Part shown: piece after piece, positions 789 to 20,509 of the stretch
Position numbering within the stretch: the stretch's first letter is position 1
Layout: each line of letters opens with the position of its first letter
Virus record (IMG/VR): IMGVR_UViG_3300036860_000031
Location: 1-21,325 of that record
Reading direction: 5' to 3' (one strand)
Source: a virus
DNA: 21,325 bases
Notes under the pieces: generated by a model
Seen by the model: the letters and a program-made list of their open reading frames with translations, nothing else
Told to the model about the DNA's origin: nothing
Databases searched by the model: none
Position numbers and translations under genes: made by a program

Positions 789-1244
789 TCATCCGCTCAG
801 CTTGAATGAGGCGTGCCACGGCTCACCATCAATGGCGTAATGCCAACCGCGTTTCTTGAGGTGATACGCGATCCGTTGACGGCGTAGGACGCCCTGAGCC
901 ATGGAGATATCAACCGCTAGGGCTTCTACATGCAGAGAGCCGTCAGGGTCTGCGTACCGGCCCGGGTCATCGCTGCCCTCAAATAGAGCCCTCTGGAGCT
1001 CATAGCTGCGGTAGCCCACGCCTGTGAGCAGGATCGGGAGAACCTTGCCCTTACGTCTCATCCGCAGGGGCGTGGCTGCCTTCTCGGCCTCCTTGAAGGA
1101 ACGGAGCGCTGGTCCTTGGAGCACCACATCCCCAGCCTCGCGCTGGTACCTCTGGAGGTTCGGGGGTGGCTTGATGCGGCCGGGATTCCGGGCCGTCACC
1201 GTGCCATATGGGGTCTGGAAATCGCCATCCGAATAGTTACTCAT
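789..1244 (-). CDS. Peptidase M15 (VanY/DD-carboxypeptidase-like) endolysin
   Basis: This 151-aa protein resembles the M15 zinc peptidases that cut cross-linking peptides in the cell wall and serve many phages as endolysins. The motifs appear in order: GYRSYELQRAL near residue 77, the SxHxxGxAxD zinc motif in the form SLHVEALAVD (residues about 103-112; His and Asp kept, the usual Gly replaced by Ala), and GEPWH near the C-terminus, supplying the general base Glu and third zinc ligand His. The 60-residue N-terminal part has no recognised cell-wall-binding domain. There is no signal peptide, so a holin would be needed for release. It overlaps the upstream LAGLIDADG gene by ATGA and is followed three bases later by a small membrane protein, forming a lysis cassette. 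Confidence 0.85.
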   Translation of the reverse strand: MSNYSDGDFQTPYGTVTARNPGRIKPPPNLQRYQREAGDVVLQGPALRSFKEAEKAATPLRMRRKGKVLPILLTGVGYRSYELQRALFEGSDDPGRYADPDGSLHVEALAVDISMAQGVLRRQRIAYHLKKRGWHYAIDGEPWHASFKLSG

Positions 1245-1696
1245 CGGGGCGGCCTACCTTTTGAGCGATGGAAATACTCCGCTCGCTCTAGGTCATCCAG
1301 ATCGCGGTATCGCTTACCAAACCAGCGCCAGGCATTCGTGCTACCCGTGCTGCGGGTGCCATCTGCTCGAAGGACTTCAGCTGCGCGAGCTCGACGCCGC
1401 GGGCCCAGCCAGGGCCACAGCATTGCGGTAAGTGCCTGCGTCTTCTCGAGGGTGCCGACCTTCCAGGTATAGCGAGGCTTCTTGAGAAGACCATCAGGGC
1501 CACGGTTGATACCGGGGCCATGAACCGTCCCGAACCCCACCGCCCGGGCAAATCGCTCAAGTGGCTCACGGTCGGTCATCTCAATCCCTGCGTGGGGAGC
1601 AGGGTGCCCAGGGTGCTTGGTGACCATGGTGAAGTAGCCCTCGCCCTCGAATAGGCCCCCGGCATAAGCGAGTTCTTCGCGGTTCGGGAAGGTCAA
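1241..1696 (-). CDS. Single-motif LAGLIDADG-like homing endonuclease, TTG start
   Basis: The 151-aa product begins with ELAYAGGLFEGEGYFT, the one-copy LAGLIDADG-type motif in its LAGLFEGEG form, in which an acidic residue binds the catalytic metal. A single motif implies action as a homodimer. The start is TTG at 1696: a perfect SD (AAGGAGG, 1703-1709) lies exactly six bases upstream, and no ATG competes. A good promoter lies at 1716-1744, so the transcript leader would be only a few bases long. It shares a WPWL-containing segment after the core (MLWPWLGPRRRARA) with the other LAGLIDADG ORF at 6877-7242 (LWPWLSELKRAQ), suggesting they are relatives. It heads the lysis operon and overlaps the endolysin start by ATGA. 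Confidence 0.8.
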   Translation of the reverse strand: MTFPNREELAYAGGLFEGEGYFTMVTKHPGHPAPHAGIEMTDREPLERFARAVGFGTVHGPGINRGPDGLLKKPRYTWKVGTLEKTQALTAMLWPWLGPRRRARAAEVLRADGTRSTGSTNAWRWFGKRYRDLDDLERAEYFHRSKGRPPR

Positions 1697-6876: not shown

Positions 6877-7242
6877 CTAGACCACTCTCCTTCTTGAGCC
6901 GAGGGCGTGATAGTTGCGAAACGCACTCTCGAACTGCGCCCGTTTCAGTTCGCTAAGCCATGGCCATAGGCGCCAATAGAGAAGCATCACGCCATCCCGG
7001 CCTATATCCTGCTGCCAGTTCCAGCCAGATGTATGGGGGTAGATCTTGCCTCCCACGATGGAGACAAGTCGCTCAAGGACCCCCCGGTCTTTCTGTGTCA
7101 CGTTCGCATGGATATACCGATGGCCCCGACCGTTATCTCGGGCTCCGACATGTCCCTCGCCGTCCCAAAATCCCGCCGCCCAAGCCAACTCATGCGTGTC
7201 GGCCGGAATAACCGGACCATAGCCGGCCCATTGGGCTGCCAT
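6877..7242 (-). CDS. LAGLIDADG-like homing endonuclease inside the head-tail operon
   Basis: The 121-aa product carries one LAGLIDADG-type motif, ELAWAAGFWDGEGHVG (residues about 18-33), with the acidic residue kept as DGEG, so it would act as a dimer. Downstream features are HANVTQKDRGVLERL and LWPWLSELKRAQFESAF, resembling the other LAGLIDADG gene at 1241-1696. It has an excellent SD (AAGGAGG five bases before ATG 7242) and abuts the TTG-started structural gene. It is free-standing, splits two structural genes and interrupts no reading frame, so it is a selfish insertion between genes rather than an intron-encoded enzyme. Confidence 0.78.
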   Translation of the reverse strand: MAAQWAGYGPVIPADTHELAWAAGFWDGEGHVGARDNGRGHRYIHANVTQKDRGVLERLVSIVGGKIYPHTSGWNWQQDIGRDGVMLLYWRLWPWLSELKRAQFESAFRNYHALGSRRRVV

Positions 7243-18837: not shown

Positions 18838-19280
18838 CTCAGCCCCTTCGCTGGAATCGGGGTTACCATCCACATGCCCTTACGTCCGCAGTCCAAGACT
18901 AATGATGGCAAGGCATCGGCACCGATAGGAATCTTTTTCTCAGCCTGTCGTAGAGCATGGCGGGTCCATTCGAGCCCAATGAACCGGAGAAAGTTGACCG
19001 GGATCTCCCCGCCGCTCTTGTTCTCATAGGCCACGTCTACCGAGGCGGTGAAATAGAGATCATCCTTCTTCGTTTGCCCAGGCAGGCCCAGGGCTTTGTA
19101 GGTCTTGGCCTCAGAACGTCTGCCCTTGTACTTGTTCCGCCTTCCCAAACAGACGCGACAAGTACAGCCCCGCAAATGGCCATATCGGGTCAGCTTTGTG
19201 CCCATCTCATTACAACCCATGAAGGTCGTCCCGTCGCTATTGCACGGGCATGGGCCAAAGCTTTGAGTGACGGCGTTCAT
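18834..19280 (-). CDS. Probable PD-(D/E)XK-like nuclease with a Cys-rich N-terminus
   Basis: The 148-aa protein starts at ATG 19280 (ATGA overlap with the methyltransferase stop). Its N-terminal third is Cys-rich (FGPCPCNSDG, MGCNE, RGCTCRVCLGRRNKYKGR) with the GRRN...K..R..KALG sequence I recall from phage resolvase-like proteins. The second half contains DDLYFTASVDVAYENKSGG, where Asp followed by E-x-K fits a nuclease active site, and helical VNFLRFIGLEWTRHALRQ. A resolvase or recombination nuclease is the best guess. Metal ligands and activity are inferred from motif layout only. Confidence 0.6.
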   Translation of the reverse strand: MNAVTQSFGPCPCNSDGTTFMGCNEMGTKLTRYGHLRGCTCRVCLGRRNKYKGRRSEAKTYKALGLPGQTKKDDLYFTASVDVAYENKSGGEIPVNFLRFIGLEWTRHALRQAEKKIPIGADALPSLVLDCGRKGMWMVTPIPAKGLR

Positions 19281-20509
19281 GCGTCCATCTCCATCAACCT
19301 TCGCCCGATCCACTCGGCGATCTGGGGGACGACGGCATTGCCGAGTCCTCTAAGTCGGTCCATTCGAGAGGGAACCCCCTTGGAGATCCTCGGTACCCCA
19401 GGCCACTCGCTCACGAACGGTCCTCCACCAAGAGCCATTCCGACCCATGCTTGATCTTCTTCAGATAGGGACTGCCATGCCGCCGCTGTCGGCTGGCGTG
19501 GGTCGGACAGAGCCCCAACTTGCGAGCAGGTTTGTCGCAGACCTTGCATGAACCGAGCCGCTTCCAGGCTCGCTTGCCCGTCTCCCAATGGGTGCGGGTG
19601 TGGCAGGCGGGGCAGAGCGTTCGCAAGTTGTCGGGTGAGTTGTTCATCCGATCCTCGTCCATGTGATGCAGTCCCAACCTCGGTCCATGCGAACCACACC
19701 GCTCGCAAGCAGTCTTCTGATTGGCGAGGCGTACCGCCCGTGGAATCCACTCGGTGACCGCCATCTACACCTCCGTCCAACCCTTCGGAAATCCCATCAA
19801 CCATTCGACGAATGTCGGATTCAGTTGTCCACCAACCTCCGTCCGAAGGTTCGGGCCTCCGTCCCTGCCCGAAGATTCCGGGCCGCCCTTGCCATCGCTC
19901 TCGGTCGGCGTCGGCCACGCTCGTACCCAACGATCTAGGCTGACGCTCTTGTTCGTCTCGTAGTTCAATACCTCGGTTGAGGTTGATTTCCGTTCGATGT
20001 GATCCGAGGCCGTTGGCGTCGGGACGTGATGAGTCGGCTTGATAGGCAATGACGAAGACCCGGTAACGGAGGTGAGGGGCACCGACGGCTGCCGCCGGGA
20101 TGCAATCCCATTCTGTGTCGTACCCGCTCGCGGCCAGGTCTCCGAGTACGTCGCCCATTCCTCGAGCAAGGAGACCTGGAACGTTCTCCACAAGGACGTA
20201 TAGGGGTCGTAGTACGCGAACGATCCGAGCGAACTCGGGCCAGAGCCATCGTTCGTCGTCCTGTCCACGGCGTTTGCCGGCGAGGGAGACGGGCTGACAA
20301 GGAAATCCCCCGCAGATGAGGTCAACGGGATCGAGAAATGCCGCGGATGTTTCCCGGATATCTCCGAATCGGGGGACATCGGGCCAATGTCGTTCGAGGA
20401 CTGCTCGGCACCACTCATCGATCTCGACCTGCCAGGCACAAGTCATCCCAGCGCGTTCGAGGCCGAGATCTAAGCCGCCGATGCCCGAGAACAGGGAGCC
20501 GAAGCGCAT
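19277..20509 (-). CDS. DNA (cytosine-5-)-methyltransferase, Dcm-like
   Basis: A complete 410-aa C5-cytosine methyltransferase. Motif I is FGSLFSGIGGLDLGLERAGM (residues about 3-22), motif IV GGFPCQP with the catalytic Cys71, motif VI ENVPG (108-112), motif VIII GAPHLRYRVFVIA (the Q-x-R-x-R element is here H-L-R-Y-R), and motifs IX/X PSRMDRLRGLGNAVVPQIAE close to the end. The protein would methylate DNA to protect the phage from host restriction or to mark its own. The region between motif VIII and motif IX (about residues 160-370) is the variable target-recognition part; it is exactly where two other ORFs use another frame. It starts beside the upstream zinc gene's stop and ends with an ATGA overlap. 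Confidence 0.92.
   Translation of the reverse strand: MRFGSLFSGIGGLDLGLERAGMTCAWQVEIDEWCRAVLERHWPDVPRFGDIRETSAAFLDPVDLICGGFPCQPVSLAGKRRGQDDERWLWPEFARIVRVLRPLYVLVENVPGLLARGMGDVLGDLAASGYDTEWDCIPAAAVGAPHLRYRVFVIAYQADSSRPDANGLGSHRTEINLNRGIELRDEQERQPRSLGTSVADADRERWQGRPGIFGQGRRPEPSDGGWWTTESDIRRMVDGISEGLDGGVDGGHRVDSTGGTPRQSEDCLRAVWFAWTEVGTASHGRGSDEQLTRQLANALPRLPHPHPLGDGQASLEAARFMQGLRQTCSQVGALSDPRQPTAAAWQSLSEEDQAWVGMALGGGPFVSEWPGVPRISKGVPSRMDRLRGLGNAVVPQIAEWIGRRLMEMDA
19411..19764 (-). CDS. HNH endonuclease ORF nested in the methyltransferase gene (different frame)
   Basis: The 117-aa ORF is a complete HNH enzyme: CERCGSHGPRLGLHHMDEDR (zinc pair plus the HH), MNNSPDNLRTLCPACHTRTH with the Asn and second zinc pair, and a C-terminal zinc element CKVCDKPARKLGLCPTHASR ending in the R-R-H-G-S-P sequence known from phage HNH proteins. 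It starts at ATG 19764 with GGAGGT four bases upstream, one codon after the stop of the neighbouring 224-aa ORF in the same frame. It shares all of its DNA with residues 249-366 of the methyltransferase. Both readings look like real proteins. Confidence 0.75.
   Translation of the reverse strand: MAVTEWIPRAVRLANQKTACERCGSHGPRLGLHHMDEDRMNNSPDNLRTLCPACHTRTHWETGKRAWKRLGSCKVCDKPARKLGLCPTHASRQRRHGSPYLKKIKHGSEWLLVEDRS
19765..20439 (-). CDS. Phage protein ORF overprinted on the methyltransferase (LMGFPKGWTE family)
   Basis: In the same alternate frame as the HNH ORF, this 224-aa reading has phrases of an independent phage/bacterial family: SLWRTFQVSLLEEWATYSET, then WPRAGTTQNGIASRRQPSVP and LTSVTGSS, repeated PTPTASD/WPTPTESDGKGG, and the hallmark end LNPTFVEWLMGFPKGWTEV. 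It overlaps methyltransferase residues 24-248 in a +1 frame. Possible starts are GTG 20439 or ATG 20418 (AGGTCGAG upstream). It ends one base before the HNH ATG. Function is unknown; it may be a separate protein, or the family may exist because this frame of such genes is often long and open. Confidence 0.5.
   Translation of the reverse strand: MPGRSRSMSGAEQSSNDIGPMSPDSEISGKHPRHFSIPLTSSAGDFLVSPSPSPANAVDRTTNDGSGPSSLGSFAYYDPYTSLWRTFQVSLLEEWATYSETWPRAGTTQNGIASRRQPSVPLTSVTGSSSLPIKPTHHVPTPTASDHIERKSTSTEVLNYETNKSVSLDRWVRAWPTPTESDGKGGPESSGRDGGPNLRTEVGGQLNPTFVEWLMGFPKGWTEV

Follow-up and report, generated by a model that had tools for sequence, protein, structure and literature searches.

M.EcoHK31I, a two-polypeptide C5-methyltransferase acting on YGGCCR, carries motifs I-VIII and X and a predicted target-recognition region (TRD) in its large subunit, and motif IX in its small polypeptide (PMC3404938). 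M.AquI, an alpha/beta C5-methyltransferase acting on CYCGRG, is also made of two polypeptides and is split in the variable region (PMC3404938). Here, we analyzed a 21,325-nucleotide stretch of viral DNA (the window), a 21.3-kb virus record carrying terminase, portal, capsid, and tape-measure genes, in which two overlapping open reading frames (ORFs), termed alpha and beta, divide the motifs of such an enzyme between them. We put the probability that a single C5-methyltransferase is built from alpha and beta as its subunits at roughly 0.85, with assembly, activity, and role inferred from computational evidence. Alpha, in frame 0, would provide AdoMet binding and the catalytic cysteine (motifs I-VIII) together with the C-terminal helix of motif X, and beta, translated in the +1 frame from its own internal start, would contribute motif IX and the region that recognizes the target. 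By analogy with M.EcoHK31I, both polypeptides would come together to form a single functional enzyme. In the N-terminal half of beta, which lies over alpha motifs IV-VIII, the sequence would be set largely by alpha; the C-terminal half of beta would represent the ancestral specificity region with motif IX, and the alpha stretch between motifs VIII and X would be a by-product. As no restriction gene was recognized alongside, the enzyme would most likely be an orphan methyltransferase with which the phage counters host restriction.

All features of the locus lie on the minus strand. Alpha (19277 to 20509) is a Dcm-like C5-methyltransferase ORF of 410 amino acids that matches PF00145 (E = 1.3e-45) and phrog_363 (4.4e-83). 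Motifs I, IV (PCQ), VI (ENV), VIII (RxR), and X (GNAVVPQ) stand in one frame, which identifies it as a C5-cytosine DNA methyltransferase, and profile alignment assigns to it motifs I-VIII and X without motif IX. According to alignment and hhalign, the catalytic half with motifs I-VIII, including GGFPCQ, ENV, and RYRV, occupies 20039 to 20509, and motif X (RMDRLRGLGNAVVPQIAEWIGRRLMEM), aligned to its canonical counterpart, occupies 19286 to 19366. Nested in the +1 frame of alpha is beta (19765 to 20439), an ORF of 224 codons that runs from a GTG at 20439 to a TAG stop at 19765-19767. It is present as the sequence-only reading had described it, and the peptides and frame overlaps quoted there are correct; alpha TEWDCIPAAAVGAPHLRYRV and beta QNGIASRRQPSVPLTSVTGS are the same DNA read in two frames. 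When alpha codons were shuffled synonymously in the window alone, a +1 ORF of this length had a P value of 0.006, with a mean of 3.8 stops. Residues 35-223 of beta align to positions 34-280 of the 329 in the phrog_1008 profile (E = 1.7e-32), and searches of Pfam, NCBIfam, and the PDB gave no match for it. The start of beta is uncertain, with ATG 20418 or ATG 20379 as plausible as GTG 20439, and no clear Shine-Dalgarno sequence was seen upstream of it in the window. Within beta, a variable specificity region with repeated PTPTASD/PTPTESD motifs (19831 to 20052) is supported by substitution classes and is called TRD-like from its position between motifs VIII and IX. It is followed by motif IX (QLNPTFVEWLMGFPKGWT, 19774 to 19827), which in beta reads LNPTFVEWLMGFPKGWT.

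A third ORF (19411 to 19764; 117 amino acids) lies inside alpha in the frame of beta and qualifies as an HNH endonuclease (PF01844, E = 3.8e-7; 30.6 bits against a curated cutoff of 21.4). It starts at the stop of beta (GGAGG-TGTAG-ATG). The best-surviving alternative to an intact split enzyme accepts the family as real but takes the copy in the window to be decaying, with the HNH gene splitting alpha before motif X. Indeed, the insert adds more than 100 residues to alpha between the beta stop and motif X, where typical members have a few codons. However, the beta, HNH, and alpha frames are all open, that of alpha throughout the HNH ORF (P = 0.007), and in phage methylases with out-of-frame HNH insertions of the ShiLan type, the host frame stays open as well, the HNH translation there being unexplained (PMC11855218). 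We thus regard decay as unlikely, if worth keeping in mind, and infer that this copy remains active despite the insert. The window resembles the ShiLan type in having an HNH ORF in another frame of an open methylase gene (PMC11855218) but involves a different methylase, and its HNH ORF is in frame with and directly behind a nested beta, with GGAGG upstream. Translation of the HNH ORF could be explained by this Shine-Dalgarno-like sequence together with the junction between the beta stop and the HNH start. Two further ORFs of the window (1241-1696 and 6877-7242, both on the minus strand), related to each other and homing-endonuclease-like, are located among the structural genes; both belong to phrog_5046, and the second is LAGLIDADG_3-like.

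To define the two halves, we compared them with canonical C5-methyltransferases using hhalign. The alpha profile aligned over columns 1-168 (motifs I-VIII) and 367-393 (motif X), with nothing between, and the C terminus of beta aligned over columns 341-363, exactly motif IX (LTPREAERLQGFP). The latter match is short, with weak E values of 0.011 at full length and 0.0011 when trimmed; against actinobacterial monomers, where "..PRFVEWLMGLPDGWVTD.." stands directly before motif X in one frame, motif IX of beta gave an E value of 1.5e-8. In the window, motif IX is absent from the alpha polypeptide and was found in the +1 frame only, unlike the situation in a monomeric, HhaI-type enzyme. Frame merges were seen at two loci. 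In L191, motifs IX and X lie in one frame, that of Dcm, with the PTPTASD-type sequence staying in +1, and the in-frame copy aligns to HhaI "LHPRECARVMGYPDSY...GNSVV"; in L122, motif IX is in the Dcm frame and there is no motif X. Since beta has the motif IX that is absent from alpha, the two are best interpreted as parts of one enzyme, with beta as its second subunit. Modeled alone by AlphaFold2 with 79 relatives, beta gave a poor structure (pLDDT of 60), and a Foldseek search of this model against the PDB returned nothing useful; such a result fits a subunit that would fold only with its partner but lends that idea no support.

We then examined how widespread the nested arrangement is. A search with the beta protein retrieved 80 viral loci, and in all 80 a Dcm gene carrying motifs I-VIII holds a beta-family ORF in its +1 frame, most of them with motif X in the Dcm frame. 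The 80 additional viral loci obtained with the beta profile also overlap alpha in +1 without exception (80/80). As a control for search bias, the N terminus of alpha alone was used as the query, yielding 80 viral and 80 bacterial loci; motif IX was in +1 in 76 and 48 of these, respectively. Motif IX was located by profile, an earlier regular expression having missed many true cases, and over 241 loci it was found in +1 in 205, in frame 0 in 6, and in frame 2 in 1, the remaining loci being mostly canonical enzymes with motif IX in frame. PHROG 1008 was matched by each of the 79 aligned betas (79/79) and in 14 of 783 bacterial genomes, with 13 of the 14 matches overlapping alpha in +1. The nested arrangement is common in phages and prophages and is neither a quirk nor an annotation error. 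The single exception (L347, 1069-1233, plus strand) is a beta-like C terminus (SLNPEFVCWLMGFPKEWNDC) behind an HNH-like protein, present as a fusion and without an alpha frame. Other unusual loci were also noted. In L324 (990-1956, plus strand), a partial second copy of the locus lies behind a complete one, with an intact beta frame and an alpha frame from which motifs I-IV are missing, as is a proper motif X; this copy is possibly a beta-only second specificity subunit. In L188 (3007-3675, plus strand), a stop ends the alpha frame immediately ahead of motif X with beta open, reflecting either a sequencing error or inactivation.

These data also bear on whether beta might be an independent overprinted phage protein with some other job, for instance, in anti-restriction or regulation, that overlaps Dcm by chance. 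Overprinted phage genes often encode accessory proteins, which together with the missing Pfam match would favor such a protein. Nonetheless, beta contains the very motif that alpha is missing, L191 and the actinobacterial monomers have the same motif in frame, ahead of motif X, and beta is found essentially only on alpha, so that we consider an unrelated function improbable. The sequence-only reading had proposed a separate family whose standalone members are common; the first part is not supported in view of motif IX, and no convincing standalone members turned up, with none among the 80 viral loci and only the L347 match lacking alpha among the 14 from bacterial genomes. Gene callers that list one of the two frames are a plausible explanation for the "standalone" betas in records: both nested coding sequences are annotated in Paenibacillus phage Jacopo (gp56 and gp57), only alpha is listed in Synechococcus phage S-H1, and only beta in contig cta39025. 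The Llama gp74/gp75 pair, considered as evidence of a split gene, was rejected as a frameshifted copy.

Whether beta is coding was assessed family-wide by counting stops against a null in which the synonymous codons of alpha were shuffled and the protein was kept. In 171 nonredundant nested loci, the +1 frame contained 10 stops from motif VI to motif IX versus 416 expected, and it was fully open in 161 loci versus 23 expected. The +2 frame was not depleted (1146 stops versus 1091 expected). This null does not include codon-pair bias, but the control frames and regions, which are unaffected, speak against such a bias as the cause. In a finer map of 201 loci, +1 stops were as frequent as expected up to a point about 110 codons short of the motif VIII end; the two bins that follow had 0.41 and 0.26 times the expected number. 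The bins after these, which cover the 70 codons leading up to the motif VIII end, the TRD, and motif IX, held 0, 0, 0, 1, and 0 stops, i.e., 1 versus about 573 expected, and downstream of beta, +1 stops were normal again. In the zone where the start is expected, 274 ATG codons were counted in +1 compared to 62 in +2 and 18 in frame 0, and those with a Shine-Dalgarno-like core numbered 71, 9, and 1, respectively. This pattern weighs against programmed frameshifting into a single polypeptide, in which alpha motifs I-VIII would be followed by a +1 shift into the TRD and motif IX and a return to motif X. Such a product would, judging from the profile alignment, restore the canonical linear motif order, but the +1 frame is open some 70 to 110 codons upstream of any needed shift point, the zone where it opens is enriched in ATGs with Shine-Dalgarno-like cores, and two shifts would be required; we therefore give frameshifting very little credence.

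We next determined which frame selection follows, using 63 pairs of relatives. Only isolated substitutions were retained and classed by their effect in both frames, replacing an unfiltered count that was distorted by multiple hits. Before beta, alpha-silent/beta-changing substitutions stood at 0.130 versus 0.0075 for alpha-changing/beta-silent ones, and over motifs I-VIII at 0.083 versus 0.020. The order was inverted over the TRD (0.020 versus 0.069) and motif IX (0.014 versus 0.065) and returned after beta (0.090 versus 0.012). The substitution classes thus reverse twice along the gene, indicating that selection reads alpha, then beta, and then alpha again at motif X. No substitution creating a beta stop was found over the variable region and motif IX in these pairs, the DNA of the specificity region is only weakly constrained in the alpha frame, and in single-frame controls selection was in frame 0 throughout.

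The N-terminal half of beta is less distinctive. Over motifs IV-VIII, the beta profile is matched as well by the +1 frame of some methyltransferases that have motif IX in frame; as this resemblance is shared, the diagnostic part of beta is its C-terminal half. A stop-free +1 frame over motifs IV-VIII was withdrawn as proof of a nested beta, since 25 enzymes with in-frame motif IX show the same. Judged against 57 diverse C5-methyltransferases, this openness is clade-specific and not general. The idea that the +1 ORF merely reflects conserved Dcm motifs in a GC-rich background and that the database family is an annotation artifact, which could draw on that shared resemblance and on the little amino acid constraint that the N-terminal half of beta has of its own, can be set aside almost entirely, as those 57 enzymes show no +1 depletion (398 stops versus 390 expected), the depletion in nested loci persists at a GC content below 50% (4 versus 108), and selection over the TRD and motif IX follows the beta frame, which refutes it for the C-terminal half. 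Accordingly, the dual coding by overprinting that the sequence-only reading put forward is upheld by the near absence of +1 stops and by purifying selection that acts on beta in the specificity region and motif IX, and the frame artifact that it offered as the other option is rejected on the same evidence. It had also named dN/dS near 1 in the second frame and frequent stops there as signs to the contrary; both were looked for, and neither was found.

A second kind of nested ORF, assigned to PHROG 16143, was observed in streptococcal and clostridial prophage C5-methyltransferases with in-frame motif IX (L354-L433 and L221-L242; e.g., L368, 2152-2565, plus strand). It lies in +1, is about 140 codons long, and ends in a conserved tail, SLSDILEENVDEKYFLS, the only part predicted with confidence; several other monomers have SLSDILEENVDEKYFLS in frame 0, 21 to 25 codons after motif VIII. 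Over motifs IV-VIII, these enzymes contain 1 stop in +1 versus 64 expected (25 genomes), with no +1 depletion in their other regions in the same genomes, and the ORF shows constraint of its own. This clade counts as a point against the split-enzyme reading, in that openness over motifs IV-VIII is unspecific. A tree built from motifs I-VIII unites the nested PHROG 1008 type with the actinobacterial in-frame monomers in one clade (97/97), and most streptococcal and clostridial enzymes fall outside it, so there may have been two origins. We find the case evenly balanced for a general phage and prophage architecture in which C-terminal elements of C5-methyltransferases have moved to a nested +1 gene in at least two ways, namely the specificity region and motif IX in type 1 (PHROG 1008) and the SLSDILEENVDEKYFLS element in type 2 (PHROG 16143), and in which beta may be a swappable specificity subunit (compare L324).

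If alpha and beta are indeed two subunits of one enzyme, many annotated Dcm-like methyltransferase genes of phages would encode only half of an enzyme. An annotated ORF cloned alone could yield an inactive or nonspecific protein, and one half would be dropped by gene callers that forbid long overlaps on the same strand. PHROG 1008, a large phage family labeled just "DNA methyltransferase," would gain a concrete role. The loci are also a natural example of overlapping genes of unusual clarity, with a visible change in the frame under selection along one piece of DNA.

Compared with known systems, the window locus shares with the monomeric M.HhaI type (PF00145) an alignment of alpha over motifs I-VIII and X and of beta over motif IX, but no single polypeptide of the window has all motifs. 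Its beta is a member of PHROG 1008 (329 positions), the label of which is silent on the family being the +1 frame of another methyltransferase gene. Like M.AquI, it is a C5-methyltransferase split within the variable region; however, AquI beta has both motifs IX and X in a plain split, whereas the window has motif X in alpha and nested genes. The closest likeness is to M.EcoHK31I, given an alpha with motifs I-VIII and X but without IX and a beta with motif IX. The small-subunit gene of the window is nested in the large one, a layout that M.EcoHK31I reportedly shares, its small-subunit gene being said to lie out of frame within the large one. The window system differs in being phage-borne and widespread, with no recognized restriction gene adjoining, and selection places its specificity region in beta, whereas the TRD predicted for M.EcoHK31I in the literature belongs to its large subunit. 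By motif layout, and with M.EcoHK31I compared by description, the window locus is assigned to the M.EcoHK31I type of split methyltransferase.
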